IMG/VR virus record: IMGVR_UViG_3300025120_000757
Location: 1-20,082 of that record
DNA length: 20,082 nucleotides
DNA from: a virus
Reading direction: 5' to 3' (one strand)
The notes beneath the pieces were generated by a model. It worked only from the letters and a program-made list of their open reading frames with translations, was not told the origin of the DNA and did no database searches. Each line of letters starts with the position of its first letter. The stretch's first letter is position 1. The translations under genes and the position numbers were made by a program. Positions 1 to 20,082 of the stretch are shown one piece after another.

Positions 1-1386
1 CTTTACAGAAACTTTGGACTAGGTTACGACAACCTAAATCAAGTTTGGTATGTAATTACTGCAAGTAACCTTGATAGTAGTGTATCTTTTAGTTTAACAA
101 ATGCACAGAATACAAGTGGAACAAGTTTAGATAATAGTTGGTTAGTTGATTTTCAAACAGATGGTGTTACATATACTGTCAGTTCAAGAAGTTTAGATAG
201 ATACTGGGCAAGTGTGTTAGAAACACGTTTCTTTTATGATGGCACACAAAAAGTCTATGACCCAAAAACTGGTAAAGTGATAAACGATTTTATCAATGTA
301 CTAAAGACAAACAATGCTCCGGATGTGAGCACACCACTAAACAGTGATGAGATACTTGACATTATCGGGCAACCAGTTGAATCTGATGGCTTTATTGATG
401 ACTTTAGAGTGCGTATTTCCTATAAAGATTCAGACAATGATGGCGTACCAGATAATCCAGATTATTTTGAAACATTGGTTGCTCCAGAAACCAATCCAAA
501 TAGCAAGAGAATATATCAACAACAAACAATTGACTTTGATAACCTTGAAAGATATACACCACTAGCAAGCGGAGTTGTTGTAGGGTCTTTGGCAACAAAA
601 AATGCAATTGAACTTGTGAAAAGCGAATATAATGACGCACAGGTTTTTTATGCATATACAGATAAGAAGTTTTACAAATTAAGTATTGCATACAACGGAG
701 TTAGGACTATTGCTGAAATTTCTGGGTATCAAACATTTGTGGGGAGACAAGACTTAAACTTCCAGTACAGGCACAATGCCCCTCTAAGCAGACGTATTGA
801 CCCAGGTAGTACAAATATCATAGACATCTATTTGCTCACGCAAGCATATTATACTGCATATCAAAATTATATTAGAGATACAACCGGTACTGTTGCAGAA
901 CCTGCACAACCAACAATAGAGCAACTTACCACTTCGTATAGTACACTTAATCAATACAAGATGATCAGTGATAATATTATTCTTAACAGTCTAACATTCA
1001 AGCCTTTATTTGGGACAAAAGCACCATCTGAACTTAGAGCCACTATCAAGTGCGTTAAAAATGCTACCAGTACAGTTAGCACAAGTGAAATAAAAAGTCA
1101 AGTGATAAATGCAATTAATCAGTATTTTACTATTGACAATTGGGATTTTGGTGATACGTTCTTCTTTTCAGAACTTAGCTCATACTTGCATGACCAACTT
1201 GGAAGTATAATCAGTACCGTTGTACTTGTTCCAACTAATCCGTTGAAAAGTTTTGGTGATTTATACGAAATACGCTCTCAGTCAAATGAAATATTTACTA
1301 ATGCGGCAACTGTCAATGATGTTGAAGTCATTGATGCACTAACAAGCAGTCAACTTAGAACTGCATCTAATAGTGGAGTAGTATAA
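1..1386 (+). CDS. Baseplate-type virion structural protein, 5'-truncated by the window edge (gp6-like C-terminal region possible)
   Basis: The reading frame is open from base 1 to a TAA at 1384-1386, so 461 residues are visible and the true start lies upstream. The GTG at 214 is in the same frame but is internal, because good protein sequence (for example YRNFGLGYDNLNQVWYVIT near the start) precedes it. Around residues 143-151 there is a calcium-loop-like DSDNDGVPD motif of the thrombospondin type-3 kind. The last third (about residues 320-430) contains NQYFTIDNWDFGDTFFFSEL followed by a hydrophobic VVLVP strand. This resembles the C-terminal region of T4 gp6/baseplate J-like wedge proteins, where an alternating helix and beta domain makes wedge contacts. 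That family link is from memory of the fold family and was not computed. The product would act in the virion, assembling into the baseplate in the infected cell. It is followed after only three bases by the giant structural gene, which supports a baseplate or tail role. An alternative is a fibre-attachment protein unrelated to gp6. Confidence 0.72.
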   Translation, partial: LYRNFGLGYDNLNQVWYVITASNLDSSVSFSLTNAQNTSGTSLDNSWLVDFQTDGVTYTVSSRSLDRYWASVLETRFFYDGTQKVYDPKTGKVINDFINVLKTNNAPDVSTPLNSDEILDIIGQPVESDGFIDDFRVRISYKDSDNDGVPDNPDYFETLVAPETNPNSKRIYQQQTIDFDNLERYTPLASGVVVGSLATKNAIELVKSEYNDAQVFYAYTDKKFYKLSIAYNGVRTIAEISGYQTFVGRQDLNFQYRHNAPLSRRIDPGSTNIIDIYLLTQAYYTAYQNYIRDTTGTVAEPAQPTIEQLTTSYSTLNQYKMISDNIILNSLTFKPLFGTKAPSELRATIKCVKNATSTVSTSEIKSQVINAINQYFTIDNWDFGDTFFFSELSSYLHDQLGSIISTVVLVPTNPLKSFGDLYEIRSQSNEIFTNAATVNDVEVIDALTSSQLRTASNSGVV

Positions 1387-1389
1387 ACT

Positions 1390-4300
1390 ATGGCTAAGCG
1401 TATACGCTCTGAGGATTTTTTACCAGAAATCTTTCAAACTGCTGCAAACAAACAACTTCTAAGAAGTACTCTTGATCAACTTACTCAGAACCCAAAACTT
1501 AAACCCACTGAAGGTTATATTGGACGTAAGATTGGTCCTGGCGTAACTGCAAGTGACAACTATATATTAGAACCAACACAGACAAGAACTGATTACCAAT
1601 TAGAGCCTGGGGTTGTGCAACTGAAAACAGACACTAGTGTAGTTGAGAATGCAATTACATACCCTGGAATCATTGACAGTTTGCAAATGCAAGATGCAAA
1701 TGTAACACGTGATGATAGACTTCTAGAAAGTGAACACTATAGCTTTGATCCAATGGTTGATTTTGACAAGTTTGTGAATTTTGGCCAGTACTATTGGATA
1801 CCACCCGGACCTGACAGTGTTGATGTATTTTCAAACGGGGTACCGACAACAGATACGTTTGATGTTACATACAATAATGGTTATAATTTTTCAGGAGAAG
1901 CAGGAAGCCTCCCAACATTAACTTTGGTACGTGAAGGAAATTACGTATTTGATGTAAACACCGGCGGTAGAAATTTTTGGATACAAAGTGTCCCAGGTAC
2001 TAGCGGAGTGTTACCACAACAGGCAAATCAAAGTTCAAGAGATGTTCTTGGTGTCAGCAACAACGGTGACGATGTTGGCAACGTGGTATTTAATGTTCCT
2101 GCAAAAACTGCACAGAACTTTTTCTTTACCCTTGCTGATATTGGAAACACAGACTTAGTTGAAGATACACTAAAGTTTAGCGATATAAACAACCAATTTG
2201 TTGATGTATTCTTAGCGGCAAATGGTGGAATAGATGGCATTACAGATTTACAAAATAGAACACTTCTAATAACCACTGAGACTGATTTGGGTTGGGAAAA
2301 TTTTACACCTTTTGACGACACACTTTTTGATCAGGACAATCCAGGAATACCAAACGCCGCATTTGACAACAGTGTTGCAATCTCAACAAATTCAGAGCGT
2401 TATGTACAGTGGAGGATAAATTTTAACTATGCAAATCCACTTCGTCCATTTATTGAACTCACAAAAGTTCAAGATGTTGCAAATCTAAGCAAAACACAGA
2501 TACAATATGGTACTGAATATGCTAATGCAACTATGTACAAGGATGCAGAAGGTGAATTTCAACGCCAGCCTCTTATAACTGCTAATCTTGATATACTTTA
2601 TTATCAAGATGCAAGTGACGAACTAAACTTTGGTATAATAAGAGTTGTTGATCAAGCAAATAGTGAAGATTTAAACGTAAATGATATCATTGGAAAACCA
2701 AACTATACATCACCAAACGGTGTGGTATTTGCAAACGGATTAAAAATTAATTTTATAGGATCTGTTGTTCCAGAAAGTTATGCGAACATAGAATACTATG
2801 TAGAAGGAGTGGGTACTGCAATAGAGCTATTGCCTGTAACTAATTTTGTTACACCAGAGACATATACAAAGTCAGAAACTGTGCCTTTTGATAGCACGGC
2901 GTTTGATAATGGTGGTTTTGATGCTACTTCAGATGCTCCAACAGTTCAAGACTATATGCTTATGAATAGAGCTTGTATTGATTTGAATGCGTGGTGTCGT
3001 GGTAATAGATGGTTTCATATTGATGTGTTGAATGCAACTGCAACATATAATAATACAATTTTAAACATAGACAACAATGCAAGAGCAAAACGTCCAATAC
3101 TTGAATTTAAAAAGAGTCTTAAACTATTTAACTATGGTACAATTTCAACCAATCCGGTTGATATAATTGACTTTGCAGAGACTGATGCAATGTCAAATAT
3201 CAACGGTACCTCTGGTTATGCAGTTGACGGGTATAGTTTTATTAATGGATCAAGGGTAATATTCAACGCTGATCTTGATCCAGAAGTAAGAAACAAAATT
3301 TACACTGTATCTTTTGTTAATCTTGGAGCAGGTGATGTAATTGATTTACAACCTGCAAGTTTAACACAACCTGATGTAGCCACTAATACGATTGTTGTTG
3401 TTTTGTCTGGACAAACAGAACAAGGTAAAGCGTATTGGTATAATGGCACAACTTGGGTCAGTGCTCAACAAAAAACAAGCACAAATCAACCACCAATGTT
3501 TGATATATTTGATGCAAGTGGATACAGTTTAGGTGATGAGGTAGTGTATCCTTCAAGTACATTTATTGGTACTAAAATATTCAGTTATGCAATAGGGACT
3601 GGTGTAACTGACAGCATAATTGAACAACCTTTAAAGTACCTTACAATTGCAAACGTTGGAGATATAGTATTTGATAATAATCTCTACATAGATAAATTCG
3701 TCTACGTAAGTGGCACAACAAGTTCAACACAAAACATTGACACAGGGTTTGTTAGACAATACAAAACCATAGATACTTTTGATAAACTTATTGGATGGCA
3801 GACCAGTTTCACTAATGTAGTGCAAAGGCAAAGTTTCAGTTTTGATTTTGCTGGTGATGCACTGGTTCTAGATATTGAAGTGATAAGTGATAGTAGTCTT
3901 GTTCCTGTAAAGGTTTTTGTAGAAGGTCAATTTGTTCTTCCAAACACATATACCTATAACACCAACAGTGCTGGCGTTACAGAAATTACTTTTAATGCAA
4001 ATGTAGTTGGACAACCAGATACTTTGCCTGCAGTCGGAGCAGTCGTTGAAGCACAGGTAATAAGCAATAGTGCAAGTAGTATAGGTTTTTATACTATACC
4101 TGATAATTTAGAATCCAACGCCATGAACGAAAATAGTGCAAGTTTTACACTTGGGACTATTAGAACACACTATGAAAGTATATGCCAAAATTTAGAAAAT
4201 TTTGCAGGTAAAATACATGGTGCAAACAATGTACATGATTTAGGAAATGTTGTCCCTTATGGAGAACTTATACTCCAGCAGAGTGCACCGTTAACACTTA

Positions 4301-7300
4301 CTACTCCTTTTATAAACGAAAGGCAGTTTGACTATTTTCGTGCCTTAGATCTCAATTCAAATGAGTATAACAAAACAAAAAATAAAATTTTAGATTATGT
4401 AAGTGCAAACGATTGGGAAAATAAAACAACTGCACAAATATTAGATGATACACTGGCAGCAATCAATGAAGGAAAGTCTGCAATCACTCCTTTTTACTGG
4501 ACAGATGCTATTCCAAGCGGTTCTGTTTTTGAGACAACAGCATACACAATAAGTCCAATTACAAGTTACACCTTTGATACGCTTAACAGTTATAATTTTA
4601 CAAGTGCAAATTATAAAGGCTTGCTTGTATACCTTACACCAAAATCAACAGGAGTACAAGAACAACTTGTTGCTGATGGACACGACTATACAGTTGCAAC
4701 AGATGGTCCAAGAATTACAATTAACAGTGAAAATATTACACTGGCAATTGGTGATATTATCACCATTAATGAATATGACGCTACATATGGAAGTTATGTT
4801 CCAGCAACTCCTAGTATGCTAGGATTGTATCAAGTTTATAAGCCACAGATGTTTTTAGACAATACCTATATAACTCCAACCAATGTAATACAAGGACATG
4901 ATGGTAGTTTAACAGTTGCATTTGATAACGGCGATTATAGAAATAACGTGCTATTAGAATTTGAAAAAAGATGCTATAACAATATAAAATTATCTATAGA
5001 AGAAAAGTATTTTCCACCGATACAAGCAGTTGATGTTATTCCTGGACAGTTTAGAACTACAGAGTATACACTTACAGAAATTAATAATATTTTAAATGTA
5101 AGTTTTCTGTCTTGGGTAGGAACGCAGAGAGTTCCTTATAAGATACAAACCTATGATGCTGACAACGGCTTTACATGGAACTACAGTCAAAGTGCAAATC
5201 GACTAGATGGTAATCCACTATTAGGTTTTTGGCGAGGTATTTACTTTAATCTCTATGATACTGATTCTCCGGATACAACTCCGTGGGAAATGGTAGGTTT
5301 AAGTGTAAAGCCAACTTGGTGGAATACAACATACGGACCTGCACCATATACCAGTGGTAATACAGTTCTATGGCAAGATATGGCAGATGGTAAGATTGCT
5401 TACCCAACTGGTGATGTAATTAAAACACAATATATACGTCCACAACTTTTAGATTGTATACCAACTGACTCGCAGGGTAACCTGGTTGATCCAATGATCA
5501 GTATTGTTGGAAGTTACGATATAAACAGTTTTAAGAAGTCATGGGTAGCTGGCGATTATGCACCAACGCAAACTGCCTGGAGACGAAGCAGTTATTATCC
5601 TTTTGCAATACAAAGATTACTAGCACTGACTAAACCGGCAAAATACTTCAGTTGGTTTGCAGATAGAGATTTATACAAATATGACGCAACTCTAAAACAA
5701 TGGTTGTACAACAAACGATTTCGAATAAATGCAACCGAACTCCAGATCTACGGTGATGGAGTTGCAAAAAATAGTTATATTAACTTTATCGTAGATTACA
5801 ATAGAGTATCAGGATTAGATAGTACAACTCTGCTTACAAACAGACTAGCAAATCTTGACATACGTTTGTGTTACAGAATGGCAGCATTTAGTGACCAAGG
5901 ATATTTAAAAATATTTTCTGAAAAGTCATCACCAAACAGTTTAAATAGTAGTCTTCTATTACCTGATGAGAGCTTTCAACTTTCGTTGTACAAAAACCCA
6001 AGTTTTAACGAAATACAGTATTCAGCAGTGATAGTACAGAGAACAGTAGGCGGTTGGAGTGTTGCAGGTTATTCAACTGCTAAGCCTTACTTTAACATTT
6101 TGAAAAGCACTGCTGCAGGAACGTTTGGAACTTTTACTGTTAATGGCTTTACTGCACGTGTTCCTCAAACTTTTAGTGATGATGTAGTTCAAGTACCTTA
6201 TGGTTATGTGTTTACCAGCCAATCAGCGGTAGTTGACTTTTTGGTAAGTTATGGACAATTATTAGAAAAACAAGGGTTAACATTTGATAGTAATGAGAAC
6301 GAATTAATAATAAATTGGACACAAATGGCACAGGAGTTTATCTACTGGGTAGGTCAGGAGTGGACTGTTGGTAGTGTAATAAATTTGAACCCAGCCGCAA
6401 ATGTATTAAAATTAAGTCAACCATTTAGTGTAGTAGAAAGTTTAGCAAGCGAAAACATTGATGATATATTATTAAATCAAAACTTTAGGTCTTTGGCACC
6501 TGAAGATTATGCAGTTGAACGGTTAGATAATGAGCTTAAATTAATTGGACTTAATAACAATACTTTTAGCTTCTTAAATGCTAGATTCACTTCATATGAA
6601 CACATAATTGTTTTTGATAACACAAGTATTTTTAACGACCTAATGTACGAGCCAGTAACTGGTGCTAGACAAAATAGATTATTGATAAATGGTTTTACTG
6701 TTTATGACTGGAATGGTACACTTGATGCTCAAGGTTTTATACTGAACCAAGATAATATCAAAGAGTGGGAGCCAAATGTTGCCTACACAAAAGGGCAAAT
6801 TGTAGAATACAAGAACAGTTACTGGAGTGCTACTACAATACTTCCTCCTAGTGCTACGTTTGTGTTTGCAGATTGGATTAAGAGCGACTATAATAGAATA
6901 CAAAAAGGTCTACTTCCAAACTTAGCAACCAAGGCAGACGAGCTCGAAGATAATTACAATATAAAGACTGCTAATCTAGAAGGTGACGGCACTTTACTTG
7001 GACTTGGTTTAATAGGTTTCCGTCCACGTCAGTATATGCAAAATTTAAACCTAGATGATATATCACAGGCAGGATTGTACGCAAGTTTTCTAGGAACAAA
7101 AGGAACAATTACTGCGGCAGAAACATTTACAAGTGCTAATCTCGGTAAAGAAACAGCAGAATATGATATATTTGAAAACTGGGCAATACAAAGAGGATTG
7201 TACGGTGCTAACGCAAATAGAAGTTACTTTGAATTACAACTAGACGAAAGCAAGTTGTTGAGTAACCCAAGTACTATTGCAGTTATAGATCCACAAGAGT

Positions 7301-10300
7301 TTAACAATGCTGAACAAACTGTTTTAATTCAAAATATATACAAACAAAGTTATAACATAACAAATAAAAACATTCTACCTACGATATCTGCTATTCCAGA
7401 AGATGTTGGTTTACCAACAGCTGGATATGTGAACTACGATGATGTTGAACTTAAAGTTTTTGACTATGATGACTTAACAAACGTTATAAACGATCTTGAC
7501 AACATAGTTGTTGGAACTAATATTTGGGTAGCCAAAGCAAACAGTTATGATTGGAACATTTATAGAGTAAATCTTGTAAACTCAACACTGACCACAGTAG
7601 TTGATAACCTTAACGAAACATCTACGTTTACATTCAATGTGCCGCACGGATTGGTTGTTGGACAAAGATTGATAATTAAATTTTTTAACACAGACGTTGA
7701 TGGTGCCTATATTGTACAGACTGTACCTGGGTTAAAAACACTCACAGTGAACCTTAGTTTACCCGAAGGTATAACAACAATCACAAATGGTGATGGAAGA
7801 TGTTTCACACTTGAAAGTGTAAGAGTTGCACAACCAAGTGATATACCAGCGTTGAGTTTTTCAACCAGTTTAACAACAGGTAATCAAGTTTGGGTCGATG
7901 ATAACGGCGCAGGTAATTGGCAGGTATTAGAAAAACAAAATCCATTTGGAGTTGCCACTGACATTCAAGCAACGATACCAGTAATTGATGATTTGTTTGG
8001 AACAACTATTGCACAAGGTTTAAACAATCAAGGATTATTAGTAGGTGCAACAGGTTACTCAAGTTCAAGAGGTGGCGTTTATGCTTTTAACAAAAACAAC
8101 ACCGGCACATATTTACAAAAAACAGTTCTTTCACCAGATGCATCTTTATCATTTTCAGGATTTGGGTTTAGTAGCGATGCAGGTAATACAGAATGGGCAA
8201 TCGTTGGTGCACCTGCATCAGATAGTAATAAAGGTTATGCAACTGCAATCAATAGAACTGCATCAGACGGAAGTTTTGCACTCTATCAAAACTTTAATAC
8301 AGGAACAAACGACGCAGACAAGTTTGGTTATAGTGTAGCAGTAAGCGCCGATGAGCGTTGGATGTACATAAGTGCTCCAGCAGACAACAAAGTTTATGCT
8401 TATAACAAAGTAAATGTACAAAACCAACGCTTGGAATTCACAGGTGACGGTGCAAGTAGTAATTTTGTAATACAACCAACAATGCAAGTTTCAGCAAGTG
8501 TTGCAATTGCTCAAACACAAATTGCAGTCACACTAAACAATGTGACTCAAACTGCTGGAGCAGATTATACTGTATCAATATCTGCAGGATCTCAACAGGT
8601 TAATTTTACTACACCACCAAATGAAAATGACGATATAGTAATAATTCGACGACAGAGTCAAAGCTATTTTCCTACTATATCAACAACAAACTTTAGTTTT
8701 AGTACCTTGTTCACTGCTAATGACATATACTCGATGACTGTAATCGTTGACGGCAAACTATTGCGTCCATTCTTTGATTACTCTATAGTAGGAACTAATA
8801 TTGTGTTGGGAGTAGCTATCAGCACTGGTTCACTTACTATAAACGCAAAGACACATTGGGACTTTGTAAACACCTTTACTGCAACAGGCTTAGGAGCAAG
8901 TGACCAATTTGGTTATGATATTTCAACCACAACAGACGGTAGACAAATATTAGTTGGTACACCAGATGCAACAATTGGCACAAATGCTTTGGCTGGTGAA
9001 ACGTATATAATTGACAGAAGCGTTGAGAGATTTCAAGTCTCAAATGCCGCAACTGTTGCATACACAACGAGTGTTACACCAACAGCACCAGTGTCGGTAA
9101 CACTTAACGGCACATATCTTATTCCAACTGGTAATGCAAACAATGCCCAGTTTAGCGTGGCAGGGAGCGTAATTACAATTGGCACAACTCTTAATCCAGT
9201 TATACTAACAGTTGGTGATATAATAGAAGTTGAAACAAATAGTTTCTCTACCTTACAACAATTTAACAGTGTGTTAAATGGCGGAAACTACTTCTTTGGT
9301 CGAACTGTAGATATGTGCTCAACAAATTGCAGTGCATATATTGCTATGCCTAACGATAGCGTTGTACAAACCGAAGCAGGAAGTGTTGAGCGTTGGATCA
9401 ATCAAAGTCGATTGTTTGGAACTATTACTGGAACTGTAACCAATCCAGTTTTAACTGCAACAGACACTATTAGAATCAACAATTATTATGTGACACTCAC
9501 AGGCACCACTGTCGCAAGTTTGGTTACAGATATTACAACTGCTAATATACCAAACATTACTGCGTCCAGTGTAGGTGGAGCGTTGCAGATTAATCTTGTT
9601 GATGTTTCGGCTGGTGAGCAGTTTATAAAATTACAAGTAGCACCTGGAACAGGAACTGCATTCGTAGATCTTGGTTTGACACCTTGGGTTTATGCACAGA
9701 CAATCACTGCACCGGTACCACAGACTTATGCACACTTTGGAACAAGTTTAAGTATCAGTGATGATGCAAATACACTTGTAGTTGGTGCTCCTGACGCAAC
9801 TGCTTTTTTACCAACAACTTTTGATAACAGCACAACAGACTTTGATTCAGGCTCAACAAATTTATTAGACCCATTACCTGAATCAGGTGTAGCATTTACA
9901 TATGATTATTTAAATGCCGCAAATGCAAGTGCTACCAATACAGGAAAATTTGTGTACGGACAACAAATTTTTGATACAACATTAACCAGTTTAGACAAAT
10001 TTGGATCATCAGTATCCTATGTAGATGGTGTATTGCTTGTTGGTGCTCCAAACGATGATCTTAATGATAGTTCAGGAGACTTTGGTAGAGTAATACAATT
10101 AGTAAATGCTAACGAAGAAGCAAGTTGGAAAGCCAAGTATACTGAAACTCCAGTTGTTGATGCAGCTTTATTAAACAGTGTATTCATGTACAATAAACTA
10201 AGCAATACAGTTACTTCATATCTGGATTTTATTGATCCAATACAAGGAAAAATTATTGGTGTTGCACAAGCAAATATTGATTATATAGGCGGATTAGATC

Positions 10301-13300
10301 CAGCGGCTTACAATACTGGTACAGTTAACAACTACGGATCACAGTGGCGAAATGAACATCTAGGTGAAATGTGGTGGAACTTATCTACAGTAAGATTTAT
10401 AAACTACAACCAAGATGACATCGCTTTTAGAGCAAGACGTTGGGGACAACTTTTTGATGGATCAAGTGTTGATGTATATCAATGGATTGAAAGTTCAGTT
10501 ACACCTGCGAATTACACAGGCATAGGTACTGTGTTTAGTACAACAAGTTATACTACTACCACCCAACTTGACAGTGCAGGAACTTTTGTTACAACATATT
10601 ATTATTGGGTGAAAGGATTGACTGCGGTAAGTCCTAATAAAACATTAAGCTCAAGTGGTATTACACAGTATATTGCAAATCCAAGAAGCAGTGGCATAAG
10701 TTATTGTGCCGCAATTGCTCCTAATGAAATTACACTATACAATAGTAGAAATCTAATCAGTGGCACTGACACAATATTACATGTTGAGTTTGATAAAATT
10801 GCGAATGACGATAATGTCCACAGTGAATATGATCTAATTACAGTGGGTGATAAGAATAGTTTCCTTGGAACACAACTTTATAGAAAGTTTCTTGATAGTT
10901 TTTGTGGAGCAGATACTGTTGGTAATCTTGTGCCAGACCCAACACTTAGTTTAGCAGACAAATACGGAGTAAGTTTCCGTCCAAGGCAAAGTTTATTCAA
11001 AAACAGATACCTTGCATTACAGAATTATATGATTCGTGCAAATAAAATTATGAGATTGTATCCTATTTCAGATAGCAAGAGTTTTGCACTATTAAACAGT
11101 CAAGAGCCAGAGCCAACTACTGCAAGTGGTGAATGGAATAAAAGATTATTAACCTATGCAGAACTTACATATCAAGACCTAAGACAGGTATCAGTAGGTT
11201 ATAAGTATTTGGTTGCTAGTGATACTAACAACGAAGGTTTGTGGACAATTTACACAGTACAATCTGGAGAAACCTTATTATTAACAAGAGTTCAAACCTA
11301 CAAAACCAACTTATACTGGAGTTATATAGACTGGAATGGTGCAAATATTGATGGTTCTACGTATAGTAGTGCAAATTCATCATCATATGAAGTCAAAGTC
11401 TATAGTGAATTATTGGCGTTATCTGGAGTTACAGATGGTCAGTGGGCAACAGTTGTTGGCAACAGCAGTAATAAGCAAGAAGTTTATCAGTATAGCACAA
11501 CTACTGGTGAATGGACAAGAGTTTTCTTACAAGACGGAACTATTGCTATAGACAGTACTATCTGGGACTACTCAGTTGAAAACTTTGGTTTTGATCTAGA
11601 AGTATTTGATGCACAACGGTTTGACCAAGCGCCAGTAACAGAAACTAGACAAATACTCGAAGCACTTAATACACAGATATTTACAAACGAATTAGAAGTT
11701 CGCAGAAACGAATTATTAATATTAGCATTTGAATTTATAATGAGCGAACAACCTGCTCCGGATTGGTTGTTCAAGACCAGTTTGATAGATGTCAATCACA
11801 AAATACGTGACTTGATTGAATATCCTATTTTCAAAAGAGACAATCAAGACTTTGTTAGTGAATATATCAAAGAAGTCAAGCCTTATCATGTACAGATTAG
11901 AGAATTTAATTTACGGTACGAAGGGGAAGACACTTACAATGGAAGTGTTACAGACTTTGATTTACCAGCGTACTATGATAGTCTAAGACAACAGTTTGTT
12001 TCACCTATACTAGATGATAGTGAAAATCCAAAATCACTAAGTGCAGTGCCTAGTACAAGCAGTATATGGACTACATTTCCTTGGAGTCAATGGTATCAAA
12101 ATTACAAGTTAGTAATCAGCAGTGTCACAGTAGTAAATGGCGGAACGGGATATACAATACCTCCGCAAGTGGTTGTCACTGGAGACGCAGTAACACAAGC
12201 AACAATGAGAGCAGTTGTGAATACTGCAGGTGTTTTAACAAGTATTACTCTACTTACAGCTGGTAGTGGATATATAACAACACCAACAGTAACGATATCA
12301 GGTGGCAACGGCGTAGGTGCCACTGCTGTTGCAGTCTTACAAACACAACAGGTACGTGATTTTACAACTACTATTGCTTATAACAGGATCACATATACAA
12401 GTCAAGTGATAGATTGGACTGCTAATACTGCATTCACTGCTAATCAATTGGTTAGGTTTCCAGTTCCGACTGTTGGGGTTGTAAACGTTGCATTGCCAAA
12501 AGTGTACCAAGTAATTTCAGACTTTACATCAGGAAGTAGTTTTGATCCTGAAAAGTATACTATTGTTGATGCAAGCACATTAGACGCCGCAGACAGAACA
12601 ATTGGTTTATATAATCCTGGGCCAAACGAGCCAGGAAGAGAATTAGCACAGGTAATGACTGGAATTGATTACCCGGGGGTTCAAGTTGATGCTCCTGACT
12701 TTGATCAGAACACAGGATTTGATATTGGAAGCTATGATGTTAATCCATTTGATAACATTGATTTTGGTCCAGAAGGATTGCCAACATACGATGCAGGAAT
12801 ACTAGATGTCATATATGAAAGTTCATTTACAGACACATACTTAGGTACAAGATCTACTGATATTAACGTTGAAGGTGGTGCATTCATTGACACATATAGT
12901 TCACATGCTCCTGAAGAACTAGTACCTGGTAGCGAGTTTGACACACTTGACTTTAAAGTTTTTACCCGCCCAGGAAGTGATTGGAATGGAGACGGACATG
13001 GTTTTGAAATTTCTAGTATCAGTGATGTTTTTACTGCAACAGGTATAAACATAGTTTTTAATAGTTTGATGCAACATCCAGTTGAAGTAAATGTTATTAA
13101 CTCAACAACCAAACAAGTATTACCACCAGCTGTATATTCTATAAATTGGGTAACAAAAACTGTTACTGTAAGCACAAGTGCAAATGCAACCATAGGTGAT
13201 ACTATCATAGTTGAAGTCTACGGACTAGGTGGTGGATCACAACTCTACAAAGAAAGTTTTGTTGGCGATACTATTACCAACAGTACACAAGATATCAATG

Positions 13301-14958
13301 TAGCATTTAGTGAAATAAATGAAATGGTAATTTTTATAAATGGTGTACTTTCTACTGCATATTCATTTGCTGCAAATGGTAGCTTTGCAACTACAGTAAC
13401 GTTTAACACGCAACCAACAAACACTCAGATGGTTACTATCGTAGCACTAGGAGCAACCACACCAATACAGTATAGTTGGAGCACAAGTGTTGCAGAATAT
13501 TTTAACTATGATGGTAGTACAGCAACTTATCCCCTTTCTAATAGTCTACAAGGTACAAATATTGCTAATATGATAGTTGATAGAGATGGTTTTCGACTAC
13601 GTCCACCAGAAGGTATAGAATACACCGGCGATGGATCAAGTCTTGGTCCTTACTATTTGAGTACAACTGCTAAAACCAATCAAGCATTGATAAGCACTTC
13701 TGACCTATTAGTTTATGTTGATAATGTAAAACAGAACGTGGCAGTTAATTGGTCGTTAAGCACATTCGACGGAAGCAGTGACAGATATGTCGAGTTTAAC
13801 ACACAATCCTTGCCAGTTTCTGGTTCAAAAATACAAATCTTTACAACAACTGAAGCCGATTATACTGTGATTAACACAAGTGATTTAAATCTTAGAGTTA
13901 GTGCCGCATTTGATGCATTGTTTGATGTAACAACATTCAACGACACTGCTCAACAAAACATTATGACAAAGGTTTACGTTGGTCCAACAAGCCAAGGTGT
14001 CACAACAGGAGTAGCATATGATGAAGATCCATATGATGCAAGCGAGTTTGACAAGACTGTTGGTGTAACTATTGATACAAATAACTTTGCCTTAGGAAGA
14101 TTGGTTACTGCAAACGCTAGATTAATTGTTACGCTTAATGGTGAATATCTCCGACCATCAATTGATTTTACAGTAGCAACAGGCAGTGATAACCTCAGTA
14201 TATTAACACTTAATCTAAGTATTCTAAATGCTGCTGATGTATTAGCAGTAACTATGTTTACAAACACAGTCGTTCCTGACAGTCTAAACTTTAGAATATT
14301 CCAAGACATGTTAGGTAATCAAAAGTTACTTAGGTTTAGTACAAAAAATACAACAGAATTAACTGCTGATGTTGCTGTAAATGATGATACGATCTATGTA
14401 GCTAATGCATCCAAACTTGGTGAGCCAAATCTAGAACAAGGGACATTTGGACAAATTATCATTGGGGGCGAACGAATTACATATCGAACTAGAGACACAG
14501 GCAACAATACAGTTAGTGGCTTACGCAGAGGAACTGCAGGAACAGGAGTTTATACTCACTCCACCGATGATATAGTTACTGATGTAGGAGCAGGTGAGCA
14601 GTTACCAACTACATATCAACAAGCAACTGCAACAGATTCTACAATAGGTGATGGTGTTACTAAAATTTATACCACAACAATAACTATACCAACGCTTTTA
14701 GATAGTACCGAACTTGCAGACGCAATAACAGTTACAGTGGGTGGAACAGTGCTTTTACCTGATACTGATTACATTGTTACTGAATCATCTTTAACTAGTA
14801 CAGAAATAACATTCACAACTGCTCCTGCATCTGGAAGTACAATTGCATTTAGTCAGGTTACTGCCAATGTGATGTACGCACAAGGAACTAATACTGCTAG
14901 TAATGGAATTGCATTGCAAGACCAAACTACACCAGCGGCGTTGTTTTTAAAATCCTAG
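1390..14958 (+). CDS. Giant modular virion structural protein (4522 aa; baseplate or tail-fibre periphery, FG-GAP propeller)
   Basis: This single open frame encodes a protein of about half a megadalton. The ATG at 1390 is the first possible start after an in-frame TAA at 1384, with GGAG at 1375-1378 as a ribosome site. Visible regions: residues 1-150, a conserved N-terminus (MAKRIRSEDFLPEIFQ; later FVNFGQYYWIPPGPDSVDVF) typical of large marine myovirus structural proteins; about 824-893 and 1068-1131, beta-rich modules; 1793-1832, a chitin-binding-like module; 2200-2905, seven FG-GAP-type blades with inserted domains; 3465-3530, a core with EYIKEVKPYHVQIREFNLRY; 3581-3652, GGxGY repeats; 3676-3720, a second short WxxNTAFTANQLV-type module; 3879-4153, 4233-4293 and 4421-4489, further beta modules; about 4351-4383, an IIIGGERITYR...GLRRGTAGT motif. 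No signal peptide or membrane span is apparent, as expected for a virion protein. Its place after a baseplate-type gene suggests a baseplate wedge extension or fibre scaffold that contacts host surface glycans. It occupies roughly the genomic place of gp7/gp8 in T4, but I cannot show homology to either. Cysteine is rare. Confidence 0.85.
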   Translation: MAKRIRSEDFLPEIFQTAANKQLLRSTLDQLTQNPKLKPTEGYIGRKIGPGVTASDNYILEPTQTRTDYQLEPGVVQLKTDTSVVENAITYPGIIDSLQMQDANVTRDDRLLESEHYSFDPMVDFDKFVNFGQYYWIPPGPDSVDVFSNGVPTTDTFDVTYNNGYNFSGEAGSLPTLTLVREGNYVFDVNTGGRNFWIQSVPGTSGVLPQQANQSSRDVLGVSNNGDDVGNVVFNVPAKTAQNFFFTLADIGNTDLVEDTLKFSDINNQFVDVFLAANGGIDGITDLQNRTLLITTETDLGWENFTPFDDTLFDQDNPGIPNAAFDNSVAISTNSERYVQWRINFNYANPLRPFIELTKVQDVANLSKTQIQYGTEYANATMYKDAEGEFQRQPLITANLDILYYQDASDELNFGIIRVVDQANSEDLNVNDIIGKPNYTSPNGVVFANGLKINFIGSVVPESYANIEYYVEGVGTAIELLPVTNFVTPETYTKSETVPFDSTAFDNGGFDATSDAPTVQDYMLMNRACIDLNAWCRGNRWFHIDVLNATATYNNTILNIDNNARAKRPILEFKKSLKLFNYGTISTNPVDIIDFAETDAMSNINGTSGYAVDGYSFINGSRVIFNADLDPEVRNKIYTVSFVNLGAGDVIDLQPASLTQPDVATNTIVVVLSGQTEQGKAYWYNGTTWVSAQQKTSTNQPPMFDIFDASGYSLGDEVVYPSSTFIGTKIFSYAIGTGVTDSIIEQPLKYLTIANVGDIVFDNNLYIDKFVYVSGTTSSTQNIDTGFVRQYKTIDTFDKLIGWQTSFTNVVQRQSFSFDFAGDALVLDIEVISDSSLVPVKVFVEGQFVLPNTYTYNTNSAGVTEITFNANVVGQPDTLPAVGAVVEAQVISNSASSIGFYTIPDNLESNAMNENSASFTLGTIRTHYESICQNLENFAGKIHGANNVHDLGNVVPYGELILQQSAPLTLTTPFINERQFDYFRALDLNSNEYNKTKNKILDYVSANDWENKTTAQILDDTLAAINEGKSAITPFYWTDAIPSGSVFETTAYTISPITSYTFDTLNSYNFTSANYKGLLVYLTPKSTGVQEQLVADGHDYTVATDGPRITINSENITLAIGDIITINEYDATYGSYVPATPSMLGLYQVYKPQMFLDNTYITPTNVIQGHDGSLTVAFDNGDYRNNVLLEFEKRCYNNIKLSIEEKYFPPIQAVDVIPGQFRTTEYTLTEINNILNVSFLSWVGTQRVPYKIQTYDADNGFTWNYSQSANRLDGNPLLGFWRGIYFNLYDTDSPDTTPWEMVGLSVKPTWWNTTYGPAPYTSGNTVLWQDMADGKIAYPTGDVIKTQYIRPQLLDCIPTDSQGNLVDPMISIVGSYDINSFKKSWVAGDYAPTQTAWRRSSYYPFAIQRLLALTKPAKYFSWFADRDLYKYDATLKQWLYNKRFRINATELQIYGDGVAKNSYINFIVDYNRVSGLDSTTLLTNRLANLDIRLCYRMAAFSDQGYLKIFSEKSSPNSLNSSLLLPDESFQLSLYKNPSFNEIQYSAVIVQRTVGGWSVAGYSTAKPYFNILKSTAAGTFGTFTVNGFTARVPQTFSDDVVQVPYGYVFTSQSAVVDFLVSYGQLLEKQGLTFDSNENELIINWTQMAQEFIYWVGQEWTVGSVINLNPAANVLKLSQPFSVVESLASENIDDILLNQNFRSLAPEDYAVERLDNELKLIGLNNNTFSFLNARFTSYEHIIVFDNTSIFNDLMYEPVTGARQNRLLINGFTVYDWNGTLDAQGFILNQDNIKEWEPNVAYTKGQIVEYKNSYWSATTILPPSATFVFADWIKSDYNRIQKGLLPNLATKADELEDNYNIKTANLEGDGTLLGLGLIGFRPRQYMQNLNLDDISQAGLYASFLGTKGTITAAETFTSANLGKETAEYDIFENWAIQRGLYGANANRSYFELQLDESKLLSNPSTIAVIDPQEFNNAEQTVLIQNIYKQSYNITNKNILPTISAIPEDVGLPTAGYVNYDDVELKVFDYDDLTNVINDLDNIVVGTNIWVAKANSYDWNIYRVNLVNSTLTTVVDNLNETSTFTFNVPHGLVVGQRLIIKFFNTDVDGAYIVQTVPGLKTLTVNLSLPEGITTITNGDGRCFTLESVRVAQPSDIPALSFSTSLTTGNQVWVDDNGAGNWQVLEKQNPFGVATDIQATIPVIDDLFGTTIAQGLNNQGLLVGATGYSSSRGGVYAFNKNNTGTYLQKTVLSPDASLSFSGFGFSSDAGNTEWAIVGAPASDSNKGYATAINRTASDGSFALYQNFNTGTNDADKFGYSVAVSADERWMYISAPADNKVYAYNKVNVQNQRLEFTGDGASSNFVIQPTMQVSASVAIAQTQIAVTLNNVTQTAGADYTVSISAGSQQVNFTTPPNENDDIVIIRRQSQSYFPTISTTNFSFSTLFTANDIYSMTVIVDGKLLRPFFDYSIVGTNIVLGVAISTGSLTINAKTHWDFVNTFTATGLGASDQFGYDISTTTDGRQILVGTPDATIGTNALAGETYIIDRSVERFQVSNAATVAYTTSVTPTAPVSVTLNGTYLIPTGNANNAQFSVAGSVITIGTTLNPVILTVGDIIEVETNSFSTLQQFNSVLNGGNYFFGRTVDMCSTNCSAYIAMPNDSVVQTEAGSVERWINQSRLFGTITGTVTNPVLTATDTIRINNYYVTLTGTTVASLVTDITTANIPNITASSVGGALQINLVDVSAGEQFIKLQVAPGTGTAFVDLGLTPWVYAQTITAPVPQTYAHFGTSLSISDDANTLVVGAPDATAFLPTTFDNSTTDFDSGSTNLLDPLPESGVAFTYDYLNAANASATNTGKFVYGQQIFDTTLTSLDKFGSSVSYVDGVLLVGAPNDDLNDSSGDFGRVIQLVNANEEASWKAKYTETPVVDAALLNSVFMYNKLSNTVTSYLDFIDPIQGKIIGVAQANIDYIGGLDPAAYNTGTVNNYGSQWRNEHLGEMWWNLSTVRFINYNQDDIAFRARRWGQLFDGSSVDVYQWIESSVTPANYTGIGTVFSTTSYTTTTQLDSAGTFVTTYYYWVKGLTAVSPNKTLSSSGITQYIANPRSSGISYCAAIAPNEITLYNSRNLISGTDTILHVEFDKIANDDNVHSEYDLITVGDKNSFLGTQLYRKFLDSFCGADTVGNLVPDPTLSLADKYGVSFRPRQSLFKNRYLALQNYMIRANKIMRLYPISDSKSFALLNSQEPEPTTASGEWNKRLLTYAELTYQDLRQVSVGYKYLVASDTNNEGLWTIYTVQSGETLLLTRVQTYKTNLYWSYIDWNGANIDGSTYSSANSSSYEVKVYSELLALSGVTDGQWATVVGNSSNKQEVYQYSTTTGEWTRVFLQDGTIAIDSTIWDYSVENFGFDLEVFDAQRFDQAPVTETRQILEALNTQIFTNELEVRRNELLILAFEFIMSEQPAPDWLFKTSLIDVNHKIRDLIEYPIFKRDNQDFVSEYIKEVKPYHVQIREFNLRYEGEDTYNGSVTDFDLPAYYDSLRQQFVSPILDDSENPKSLSAVPSTSSIWTTFPWSQWYQNYKLVISSVTVVNGGTGYTIPPQVVVTGDAVTQATMRAVVNTAGVLTSITLLTAGSGYITTPTVTISGGNGVGATAVAVLQTQQVRDFTTTIAYNRITYTSQVIDWTANTAFTANQLVRFPVPTVGVVNVALPKVYQVISDFTSGSSFDPEKYTIVDASTLDAADRTIGLYNPGPNEPGRELAQVMTGIDYPGVQVDAPDFDQNTGFDIGSYDVNPFDNIDFGPEGLPTYDAGILDVIYESSFTDTYLGTRSTDINVEGGAFIDTYSSHAPEELVPGSEFDTLDFKVFTRPGSDWNGDGHGFEISSISDVFTATGINIVFNSLMQHPVEVNVINSTTKQVLPPAVYSINWVTKTVTVSTSANATIGDTIIVEVYGLGGGSQLYKESFVGDTITNSTQDINVAFSEINEMVIFINGVLSTAYSFAANGSFATTVTFNTQPTNTQMVTIVALGATTPIQYSWSTSVAEYFNYDGSTATYPLSNSLQGTNIANMIVDRDGFRLRPPEGIEYTGDGSSLGPYYLSTTAKTNQALISTSDLLVYVDNVKQNVAVNWSLSTFDGSSDRYVEFNTQSLPVSGSKIQIFTTTEADYTVINTSDLNLRVSAAFDALFDVTTFNDTAQQNIMTKVYVGPTSQGVTTGVAYDEDPYDASEFDKTVGVTIDTNNFALGRLVTANARLIVTLNGEYLRPSIDFTVATGSDNLSILTLNLSILNAADVLAVTMFTNTVVPDSLNFRIFQDMLGNQKLLRFSTKNTTELTADVAVNDDTIYVANASKLGEPNLEQGTFGQIIIGGERITYRTRDTGNNTVSGLRRGTAGTGVYTHSTDDIVTDVGAGEQLPTTYQQATATDSTIGDGVTKIYTTTITIPTLLDSTELADAITVTVGGTVLLPDTDYIVTESSLTSTEITFTTAPASGSTIAFSQVTANVMYAQGTNTASNGIALQDQTTPAALFLKS
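6766..6885 (+). other. Chitin-binding-like (CBM5/12-type) module within the giant protein
   Basis: Residues 1793-1832 of the giant protein read WEPNVAYTKGQIVEYKNSYW followed by SATTILPPSATFVFADW. This fits the short carbohydrate-binding pattern W-x(5)-Y-x-x-G-x-x-V-x-Y-x(3)-Y-x-A of CBM5/12 modules, with aromatic residues at the places that stack on sugar rings. In phage tails such modules are thought to touch host surface glycans or simply to act as small structural spacers. The match is by eye; sugar binding is an inference. Confidence 0.5.
7993..10104 (+). repeat. Seven FG-GAP-type beta-propeller repeats with inserted domains, within the giant protein
   Basis: Seven repeat units can be aligned by their phenylalanine-glycine start and a later VGAP/SAP/VGTP strand. 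The FG phenylalanines are at about residues 2203, 2258, 2312, 2507, 2636, 2783 and 2871 of the giant protein. Clear examples are FGYSVAVSADERWMYISAPA, FGTSLSISDDANTLVVGAPD and FGSSVSYVDGVLLVGAPNDD. Units 1 (LFGTTIAQ...LLVGATG) and 5 (FFGRTVDMCSTNCSAYIAMP) are more diverged. Unit spacing is about 55 residues between blades 1-2 and 2-3 and about 90 between blades 6-7. It is much longer at 3-4 (195), 4-5 (129) and 5-6 (147), where extra domains are inserted. Seven units would close one integrin-alpha-like propeller. The calcium-loop DxNxDGxxD of eukaryotic integrins is not seen, so this looks like the bacterial/phage FG-GAP variety. Confidence 0.75.
12130..12345 (+). repeat. Tandem GGxGY glycine-rich beta repeats within the giant protein
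   Basis: Residues 3581-3652 contain two related units: VVNGGTGYTIPPQVVVTGD, then LTAGSGYITTPTVTISGGNG, separated by an alanine/valine stretch. The pattern (small)-G-x-G-Y-x-x-x-P-x-V-x-V/I-(S/T)-G is a common glycine-turn beta repeat in phage fibres and bacterial adhesins. It probably forms a compact stalk or linker between the conserved core and the C-terminal modules. Confidence 0.6.
13024..14856 (+). repeat. Run of diverged beta-sandwich-like modules at the C-terminus of the giant protein
   Basis: At least five related units of about 60-80 residues lie at residues 3879-3945, 3952-4021, 4078-4153, 4233-4293 and 4421-4489; a partial one lies at 4037-4077. Each shows a central strand ending in a short turn such as VTLNGEYLRPSIDFTV or VTVGGTVLLPDTDYIV, then a strand like EITFTTAPASGSTIAF. 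The shared pattern is (V/I)xVxGxxLxPxxDYxVxxxxIxFxxxPxxGDxIxI. Similar units occur earlier in the same protein (824-893, 1068-1131, 2348-2424, 2437-2490, 2547-2617). DNA-level identity is low, so the duplications are old. They look like stacked tail-fibre or baseplate decoration domains. Confidence 0.6.
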
Positions 14959-18248: not shown

Positions 18249-18575
18249 ATGGATACAGAAAAACTCTCACAGAATATTAAAACAAGATTTGATCATCGAC
18301 AGGCAAGACTTGTACTGCGTGAAACCTATCAGGCAAAAATGCTTTTTACTTACAACGGTGGTATGTGGCGTGCAGGCCCTGAGCTGATATTATTATGCGA
18401 TGCTTGCAGTCTTGGCATGTGGCAAGATTCACCTATCCTAATTGTATTAGAAGACCATTACAATACACCGGTAAGTGTTGATGCATCAGAGCTTAAGAAC
18501 TTAGCAGTTCAGCGTTGGCAAGAACAGATGAATGCATGGCAATCAGAATACAACGAAATATCTAAAAATAGATGA
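18249..18575 (+). CDS. Small soluble protein of unknown function (108 aa)
   Basis: The ATG at 18249 is the first possible start after an in-frame TGA at 18234, and no clear ribosome site precedes it, so translation may be weak or the leader very short. The protein is about half helical by appearance: a charged N-terminus (TEKLSQNIKTRFDHRQARLV), a beta-rich centre with YNGGMWRAGPELILLCDACS, and a C-terminal helix rich in Gln, Glu and Trp (QRWQEQMNAWQSEYNEI). A single CDAC pair is present, too little for a zinc site. Its stop overlaps the next start in an ATGA, so the two are translationally coupled. I do not recognise the function. It may be a partner or adaptor of the glycosyltransferase-like gene that follows. 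Confidence 0.75.
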   Translation: MDTEKLSQNIKTRFDHRQARLVLRETYQAKMLFTYNGGMWRAGPELILLCDACSLGMWQDSPILIVLEDHYNTPVSVDASELKNLAVQRWQEQMNAWQSEYNEISKNR

Positions 18576-19369
18576 CTGTAGGTGCACTGCTTTTTGCATT
18601 TGACAGTGAGATAAAGTATACCAAACTTGCTGTTGAATGTGCCAAAAGAATAAAACAGTATCTTGATATTCCTGTTACACTGGTAACCAACATCAAACTT
18701 GATACTGACATCTTTGAAAACCAAATACTGGTTACCAAGCCTGATGGAAAAAACAAACGCTATTGGACTGACACAGGAGAAGTAACCTCATGGTACAACT
18801 TTGGTCGCAATAGTGCCATTGACCTTACACCATATGACAGAACATTATTGATAGATATTGATTATATTGTGAACAGTGACAGTCTGTTGTCTTTACTTAA
18901 TTGTACACAACCATTTCTCTGTCATCAGTATGTACACAATGCTGATCTTTCTAAATGCCAAATTGTCACACTTGGAAGTAAAAATACTCAGATGTGGTGG
19001 GCAACAGTTGTGGTATTTGACAAGAGTGTGTTCTCTCAAGATGTGTTTGACTGTTGGAAAATGGTTGAACAAAACTATAAACACTATGCAAATCTCTTTG
19101 GCTTTGACTATAATAACTTTAGAAATGATTTTGCATTGAGCATTGCACTATTGATTGCAAATGGAAATACTATTCCTGATCAGTGTGATATACCTTGGCC
19201 ATTGTTGACTGCAAATGCTGATATTCCAGTCACCTACAAAGACAACACCTGGTGGATAGAATACAAAGTACATGAACGAGGCAAACTTATACCCAAAAAG
19301 ATTTCGTTGAAGAATCAAGATATACATGTAATTGGAAAAAGTTACTTGGAGAAAATATATGAACTATGA
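18572..19369 (+). CDS. Predicted GT-A-fold glycosyltransferase-like protein (265 aa)
   Basis: The ATG at 18572 follows an in-frame TAG directly (18569-18571) and overlaps the previous stop as ATGA, so it is probably translated by coupling. The N-terminus has the layout of a nucleotide-sugar binding half: a first strand (VGALLFAFDSE), a helix (LAVECAKRIKQYL), a second strand (IPVTLVTN), and a metal-binding DxD (LLIDIDYIVN, D95 and D97) after a DRT turn. The second half has WWATVVVFDKSVF and an FRNDFALSIALLIANG helix, of the acceptor-side type seen in related enzymes, and a His-rich end. This order matches small phage and bacterial GT-A enzymes, which move a sugar from a nucleotide donor. The donor, acceptor and activity are inferred from fold only. 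The gene downstream is similar in plan. Confidence 0.68.
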   Translation: MTVGALLFAFDSEIKYTKLAVECAKRIKQYLDIPVTLVTNIKLDTDIFENQILVTKPDGKNKRYWTDTGEVTSWYNFGRNSAIDLTPYDRTLLIDIDYIVNSDSLLSLLNCTQPFLCHQYVHNADLSKCQIVTLGSKNTQMWWATVVVFDKSVFSQDVFDCWKMVEQNYKHYANLFGFDYNNFRNDFALSIALLIANGNTIPDQCDIPWPLLTANADIPVTYKDNTWWIEYKVHERGKLIPKKISLKNQDIHVIGKSYLEKIYEL

Positions 19370-20082
19370 AGAAGAAAGAGGATATCTCATAGTTGCAGGT
19401 ACTAGTGAATCAGTTGACTATGTTGCATGTGCAGAAACACTAGCAAAGAGTCTACGTTACTGGCATCCAGATGTAAAAATCTGTTTGGTTACGGATGCAG
19501 AATATTCAAATCCGCTTTTTGATTTTATAAAACCATTTCCAAGAGGCAATACAGGTGGATGGACCACAGATTGGCAAGTGTTCCTGGCATCACCTTTTCA
19601 CGAAACAGTAAAACTAGAAGCCGACATGGTAGTGAGTGGACCAGTTGAACATTGGTGGACACTGTATAGAAATAAACCAGTGTGGATATCATCTGGTTGT
19701 AGAAACTACCATGGAGCAGTGTCAACCAAGAGAACATATAGGAAAATATTTGACAAAAACAATCTACCTGATGTGTATAACGCAGTTACCTATTGGCGAA
19801 TGAGCAAAGAGTCTCAAGTATTTTTTCAAACTGTAAAATATCTATTTGAAAATTGGGAACAAGAGAAAACAATACTACAGGGTGCAAAAGACGAACACGC
19901 AAACACTGATTTAATCTATGCATTATCAGATGATAACTTTACAACTCCGATTGGCCCGCAGATAGTACACATGAAACCTAGCATACTAGGAACGCAGACT
20001 GAAGACTGGAGCAAAGAACTTGTGTGGGAGATAGTCAACGGTGTACTGCGTATAAATGGACACAGTCAAAGTGGTTTTGTAC
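19359..20082 (+). CDS. Second GT-A-fold glycosyltransferase-like protein, 3'-truncated by the window edge
   Basis: The frame is open from the ATG at 19359 to the window end (241 full codons). It overlaps the preceding gene by 11 bases; GGAG at 19348-19351 gives a good ribosome site within that gene. The start MNYEEERGYLIVAGTSESVD leads to a Rossmann-like first strand, then LAKSLRYWHPDVKICLVTD, a donor-side strand. Metal-site-like EAD (E87, A88, D89) occurs in TVKLEADMVVSGPVEHWW, where DxD is usual. The next segments (YNAVTYWRMSKESQVFF and GAKDEHANTDLIYALSDDNF) resemble the acceptor half of GT-A enzymes. It is a different sequence from the upstream gene but has the same plan, so the pair may add two sugars in series. 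The C-terminus is not seen. Confidence 0.68.
   Translation, partial: MNYEEERGYLIVAGTSESVDYVACAETLAKSLRYWHPDVKICLVTDAEYSNPLFDFIKPFPRGNTGGWTTDWQVFLASPFHETVKLEADMVVSGPVEHWWTLYRNKPVWISSGCRNYHGAVSTKRTYRKIFDKNNLPDVYNAVTYWRMSKESQVFFQTVKYLFENWEQEKTILQGAKDEHANTDLIYALSDDNFTTPIGPQIVHMKPSILGTQTEDWSKELVWEIVNGVLRINGHSQSGFV

Follow-up and report, generated by a model that had tools for sequence, protein, structure and literature searches.

The window analyzed here is an entire virus record of 20,082 bases. It opens with the closing part of a gp6-like baseplate wedge gene, continues with a frame of 4,522 aa, and then has smaller genes. Its main features are as follows.

1..1386, plus strand: gp6-like baseplate wedge gene, 3' end (phrog_10646 baseplate wedge subunit, 321 bits)
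1390..14958, plus strand: 4,522-aa giant structural protein, host of the propeller (phrog_10938 family; jumbo-phage homologues)
1390..7569, plus strand: N-terminal scaffold, aa 1-2060, conserved across jumbo phages
7939..10143, plus strand: predicted seven-bladed FG-GAP (integrin-alpha-type) beta-propeller with inserts, aa 2184-2918 (AlphaFold2; VIA, model residues 25-757; FG-GAP_2)
10165..14955, plus strand: C-terminal scaffold, aa 2926-4522, its first part conserved across jumbo phages

The wedge gene is homologous to the annotated wedge proteins of Atu_ph07, Phosso and RaK2, and the gene for the giant protein lies directly behind it (1-1386, then 1390-14958), in the position of T4 gp7. The scaffold matched the phrog_10938 family ("virion structural protein") with 970 bits (E 4.5e-291), which places the giant protein in that family. 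Since relatives of the window sit on contigs of 300 to 344 kb, its source was very probably a jumbo phage. Behind the tail genes, two adjoining frames of 265 and at least 250 aa occupy window positions 18572-20081; the second matches phrog_1903, a family of unknown function, and a Pfam search of the two frames gave no match.

Distant homologues of the giant protein are likewise giant proteins adjoining a gp6-like wedge in jumbo phages (Atu_ph07, 4,449 aa; Phosso, 4,555; PA5oct, 3,857; SCTP-2, 3,807; Vibrio 2.275.O, 3,771; 121Q, 3,323), and its open frame is conserved over more than 100 loci. The initial annotation had called it a phage structural protein, a description borne out by the wedge gene that precedes it and by mass spectrometric detection of homologues in virions. 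The database record of the homologue PA5oct gp355 lists ESI-MS/MS detection, and two proteins whose orthology to the window protein is judged by neighbor and size alone were found by mass spectrometry of virions: CBB_236, which adjoins the wedge CBB_237, with 21 peptides (PMC5259590), and the 382-kDa phAPEC6 gp245, which adjoins the wedge gp244, with 17 peptides (PMC7247149). A PDB sequence search with the whole protein returned nothing, and profile searches with four scaffold parts gave just a weak match to All3316 (E 0.015), with no solved scaffold relative detected. Comparison of the giant protein with a single T4 gp7 sequence by hhalign gave no match, and the predicted fold behind the ring (aa 2915-3640; pLDDT 78, pTM 0.52) had no substantial match, the best reaching Z 5.6 over 54 residues. 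A direct protein search with the ring found no match among 50,697 phage records even at E 10; the named relatives were therefore reached through the scaffold. Outside the ring, the giant protein also holds a sub-threshold CBM5/12 match (window 6763-6828, aa 1792-1813), seen likewise in PA5oct, SCTP-2 and Atu_ph07, and a GxGY-type repeat (window 12109-12360, aa 3574-3657) that is common to several other phage families (phrog_460 and others).

Seven FG...GAP units begin at aa 2203, 2258, 2312, 2507, 2636, 2783 and 2871, and they are the only matches to the relaxed pattern in the whole 4,522-aa protein. Three of the seven conform to strict FG..GAP, the other four being degenerate (VGAT, ISAP, VGTP, IAMP); shuffles of the region yielded a mean of 0.16 and a maximum of 3 units, against the 7 observed. 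The count of seven units within 7993-10104 (aa 2202-2905) made in the initial annotation is thus confirmed, and the blade spacing it described agrees with the FG-to-FG distances of 55, 54, 195, 129, 147 and 88 aa; its coordinates contain all the units, but the ring extends slightly farther on both sides, to approximately aa 2184-2918 (window 7939-10143). The Pfam profile FG-GAP_2 (PF14312), a search for which had been proposed as a check, scored 55.5 bits with the whole protein and 65.5 bits with the region (cut-off 23), with four sub-hits in the window, and it matched all 60 homologues of a diverse alignment (36-92% identity) at E 0.01.

An AlphaFold2 model of aa 2160-2945, built with 60 homologue sequences, reached a mean pLDDT of 90 and a pTM of 0.89. 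Its best PDB matches in Foldseek were integrin alpha chains (E 1.5e-10). Integrin alpha propellers filled the PDB matches of the ring at Z 37-42 and 2.5-3 Å, with residues 1-453 of the propeller-only chain 3nid_C covered; in VIA-align 2, the model matched alpha-M at Z 41.7 (2.5 Å over 356 residues) and the 453-residue alpha-IIb propeller construct at Z 37.3 over 367 residues, from model residue 25 to 755. Because this fold match spans a complete integrin propeller, the model points to a single ring with the integrin blade order. Together with the blade topology, it upholds the earlier proposal of one closed seven-blade ring, and we are nearly certain of the predicted architecture, an integrin-type FG-GAP propeller with inserts. 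The blades and inserts map as follows.

7996..8130, plus strand: blade 1, aa 2203-2247 (model and FG...GAP pattern)
8161..8298, plus strand: blade 2, aa 2258-2303 (model and FG...GAP pattern)
8323..8412, plus strand: blade 3 strands A-C, aa 2312-2341 (model and FG...GAP pattern)
8413..8853, plus strand: blade-3 C-D loop insert, two predicted beta modules, approximately aa 2345-2424 and 2425-2488 (model; both match C-terminal modules)
8854..8877, plus strand: blade 3 strand D, aa 2489-2496 (DSSP; ends 11 aa before the next FG, like undecorated blades)
8908..9036, plus strand: blade 4 strands A-C, aa 2507-2549 (FG-GAP_2 sub-hits and model)
9037..9225, plus strand: blade-4 C-D loop insert, aa 2550-2612 (model and module profiles)
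9226..9264, plus strand: blade 4 strand D, aa 2613-2625 (model)
9295..9405, plus strand: blade 5 strands A-C, aa 2636-2672, containing C2643/C2647 (model and homologue alignment)
9406..9684, plus strand: blade-5 C-D loop insert, aa 2673-2765 (model and module profiles)
9685..9705, plus strand: blade 5 strand D, aa 2766-2772 (model)
9736..9975, plus strand: blade 6, aa 2783-2862; its B-C loop is 31 aa long (aa 2802-2832) (FG-GAP_2 sub-hits and model)
10000..10143, plus strand: blade 7, aa 2871-2918 (FG-GAP_2 sub-hits and model)

The A-B loop is the calcium-binding loop in some integrin blades. In the A-B turn of blade 5 (window 9316-9330), all 60 homologues have C2643 and 59 of them have C2647, a conservation that would be compatible with a disulphide or a metal site.

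Extra domains had been placed between blades 3-4, 4-5 and 5-6. Three are indeed present, but each interrupts a blade (3, 4 or 5) between its strands C and D. DSSP assigned four strands per blade to the model, with 10 to 11 aa separating the end of strand D from the following FG in blades 1 to 6; since this distance is constant even in the interrupted blades, the inserts of 147 aa (blade 3, aa 2342-2488), 63 aa (blade 4, aa 2550-2612) and 93 aa (blade 5, aa 2673-2765) are assigned to C-D loops. A strand at aa 2347-2351 was considered as strand D of blade 3 and rejected, because the constant distance and the C-terminal matches of its module make it part of the insert. The C-D loops of a propeller share one face with its A-B turns. 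As all three inserts occupy C-D loops, strand order suggests that they leave one face of the ring, at three neighboring blades, and blade topology thereby supports the idea of a ring decorated on one side. Over the 60 homologues, blade lengths are nearly constant, while the blade-3 insert ranges from 140 to 238 aa and the blade-5 insert from 92 to 215 aa.

The suggested likeness of the inserts to modules in other parts of the protein is clear in blade 3, weak in blade 4 and absent in blade 5. The profiles built from the blade-3 pair match each other as well as C-terminal modules of the giant protein (22 and 12.4 bits and as much as 14.7, with no decoy above 2.4). These C-terminal modules are the following.

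13300..13443, plus strand: C-terminal beta module weakly related to the blade-3 insert, aa 3971-4018 (5.9 bits; decoys at most 2.4)
13615..13839, plus strand: C-terminal beta module related to the blade-3 insert, aa 4076-4150 (12.4 bits)
14077..14202, plus strand: C-terminal beta module related to the blade-3 insert, aa 4230-4271 (8.1 and 14.7 bits)
14641..14850, plus strand: C-terminal beta module most like the blade-3 insert, aa 4418-4487 (22 bits)

The last of these is weakly like the N-terminal domain of the T7 tail fibre (PF03906, 18.4 bits, below the cut-off of 25.2). The blade-4 insert profile matches aa 1097-1127 at 9.6 bits versus 2.1 for decoys, and that of the blade-5 insert found nothing above decoys.

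Scaffold alignments place the ring between conserved anchors at aa 2060 and 2926. The slot between them measures 865 aa in the window, 119 in 121Q, 177 in Vibrio 2.275.O, 415 in SCTP-2, approximately 1,420 in Atu_ph07 and Phosso, and 850 to 1,117 in 190 relatives; in PA5oct it is approximately 106 aa by profile anchors and roughly 200 to 270 by full alignment. With Pfam, the giant proteins of PA5oct, SCTP-2, Atu_ph07 and 121Q gave no FG-GAP match, and genome-wide searches of PA5oct, 121Q, SCTP-2 and Vibrio 2.275.O found none either. In seven large relatives of the window, FG-GAP matches fall in frames of 4,491 to 4,953 aa that are the giant protein itself. Much of the Atu_ph07 and Phosso slots is occupied by the same kind of GxGY-type repeat as noted above, and two relatives (L232 and L255) have CBM5/12 above cut-off within the slot stretch. 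A by-eye likeness of the SCTP-2 slot and of an insert in the relative L354 to LamG- or PA14-type domains was dropped, Pfam giving no match.

In a survey of 341 proteins, an uneven sample drawn from similarity searches, 275 carry the ring (propeller profile above 40 bits): 50 with slots of 450 to 720 aa, 209 with slots of 720 to 1,120 aa, and 16 above that. The small-slot carriers that were examined are naked rings; one of them, L317, has seven units in a 551-aa slot, and of the three inserts in the window it aligns to only 4 of 142, 8 of 59 and 5 of 88 residues. In a quick tree of the anchors, rooted for drawing only and with long rows, a branch with SH-aLRT 99 splits 145 rows, nearly all ring-bearing, from 36 ringless rows that include all the named phages; the window falls in an 84-row clade (support 99) in which every row is decorated, taken as a slot above 720 aa. 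Within the ring lineage, L292 has an empty slot of 140 aa, the reading frame staying open through the junction; it seems to have lost the ring naturally. The sisters L354 and L338 differ by approximately 260 aa, an independent insertion placed in the blade-5 C-D loop of L354, and L293 carries a GDGSS-type module in the blade-7 B-C loop (14.3 bits; decoys at most 4.8); given these cases, the ring is a stable frame to whose loops domains were added more than once. The new element is the location of the ring, in a slot of a giant protein that jumbo phages conserve and whose gene adjoins that of the gp6-like wedge; in SCTP-2 and Atu_ph07 this slot has a different filling.

Our best explanation, which we consider reasonably probable, is that the ring is an accessory module of a baseplate-associated giant protein and makes contacts through its decorated face. 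The conserved scaffold would anchor the giant protein beside the gp6-like wedge, and the ring, occupying the variable slot, would form a rigid chassis projecting from the scaffold at one point, with beta modules carried on the C-D loops of blades 3, 4 and 5 at the same face. Beyond the core, that face would then touch a partner, most likely a glycan or protein of the host surface or else a host-contacting fibre; we infer an outward-facing ring with host contacts, and contact with either the host or a fibre seems rather more probable than contact with neither, whereas direct host binding by the ring falls somewhat short of an even chance. The host-recognition platform suggested in the initial annotation is plausible and is favored by the dispensable and variable slot and by the propellers of phiKZ gp131C and the phi11 receptor-binding protein (RBP), with mixed support from sequence variation. 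Among close relatives, blades 1-2 and the blade-3 insert are 56 to 58% identical, whereas the blade-5 insert is 81% and the scaffold 76% identical, so only part of the ring varies as receptor-contacting parts often do; judged from these identities, the blade-5 insert is unlike a typical receptor-binding tip.

The main rival is a structural docking role, in which the ring would belong to the inner architecture, as a spacer or as a docking plate for neighboring wedge subunits or tail-fibre bases, and the inserts would contact other virion proteins rather than the host. T4-type wedge proteins in this gene position are attachment sites for other baseplate parts, and nearly all of a deep lineage keeps the ring; among close relatives, not only the blade-5 insert but also blades 3-7 are as conserved as the scaffold. 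We nevertheless hold this role to be the less probable one, though a real possibility: 121Q-like phages have little in the slot and L292 has apparently lost the ring, so that a baseplate can be built without it, and insert lengths differ by up to approximately 120 aa. Enzymatic activity or metal-dependent adhesion is improbable for the propeller, for instance as a carbohydrate-active unit or as a calcium-dependent binding unit like integrin alpha. The shared fold, the invariant and near-invariant C2643 and C2647, and the sub-threshold CBM5/12 match are in line with such an activity, but the A-B loops are short, no catalytic family was matched, and the sole DxDxDG-type motif lies at aa 3864, outside the ring; calcium-dependent integrin-like adhesion was set aside for this lack of calcium loops in the ring. 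Chance repetition of a motif or an artefact of gene prediction, to which the four degenerate units might have pointed, has a negligible probability, given the shuffles and the frame conserved over so many loci, and it is refuted by the FG-GAP_2 matches, the confident model and the integrin fold match.

Returning to the accessory module, a further and tentative reading is that a jumbo-phage lineage took the ring up once into the wedge-adjacent giant protein and has since used it as an interchangeable display frame, the ring itself staying unchanged and domains being repeatedly added at the same C-D loops. If so, these phages would possess an evolvable host contact independent of the tail fibres. 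The slot is a single site, in a giant virion protein that many jumbo phages have, at which whole domains are gained, lost and exchanged. The empty slot, the naked ring, the decorated ring and the sister pair one insert apart are natural matched comparisons, and the contacts of giant tail-base proteins therefore become directly testable.

Among the closest known systems are the phrog_10938 giant proteins of RaK2-, 121Q-, PA5oct- and Atu_ph07-like phages, which share a homologous scaffold in the same place after the gp6-like wedge but, in the named members tested, lack an FG-GAP ring in the giant protein. FG-GAP matches or the propeller fold also occur in proteins of jumbo phages and giant eukaryotic viruses, including Atu_ph07, Phosso and cyanophage S-TIM5 (H6WG31); unlike the window ring, these stand-alone or arrayed proteins are encoded by separate genes, unfused to a wedge-adjacent giant protein. 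In Phosso (PV764938.1), minus-strand frames of 3,182 and 3,702 aa (48386-56545 and 60342-68852) hold most of 55 FG-GAP_2 hits, and two more FG-GAP_2 frames of 429 and 398 aa lie at 92-94 kb; arrays this large in one phage look unusual. A 409-aa minus-strand frame of Atu_ph07 (NC_042013.1, 243045-243821) has four FG-GAP_2 hits and is possibly the gene of A0A2L0UZX4, a 393-aa Atu_ph07 protein annotated as hemagglutinin that matched the ring fold in BFVD.

Among the papers searched, none was found that joins FG-GAP with phage baseplates. phiKZ gp131C (PDB 4GBF) is a seven-bladed propeller at the baseplate periphery with a proposed but unproven receptor-binding or surface-degrading role, and the phi11 RBP Gp45 has a five-bladed propeller platform on the baseplate with a cavity proposed for GlcNAc (PMC4901313). 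The window ring is likened by description to gp131C, also a seven-bladed propeller in a jumbo-phage tail-base protein; there it is the C-terminal domain, whereas here it is an internal, decorated module of a 4,522-aa protein. Gp45 differs in being five-bladed, trimeric and a separate protein.

With integrin alpha, the ring shares seven FG-GAP blades and a full-length predicted fold match (Z 37-42), and the model suggests that it has the integrin-alpha ring fold. The giant protein is not an integrin alpha chain, because its ring (aa 2160-2945) is without the DxDxDG calcium loops that mark the last blades in integrin alpha and because it has no leg domains; the phage scaffold follows the ring in place of these and of a membrane anchor, Pfam finds no integrin domain in the protein, identity is approximately 17%, and the ring lies inside a phage structural protein. 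Some integrin alpha members carry an I domain inserted in the ring. That insertion lies between blades 2 and 3, whereas the inserts of the phage ring lie in the C-D loops of blades 3 to 5. In these phages, the integrin-type ring is reused to carry inserted domains.
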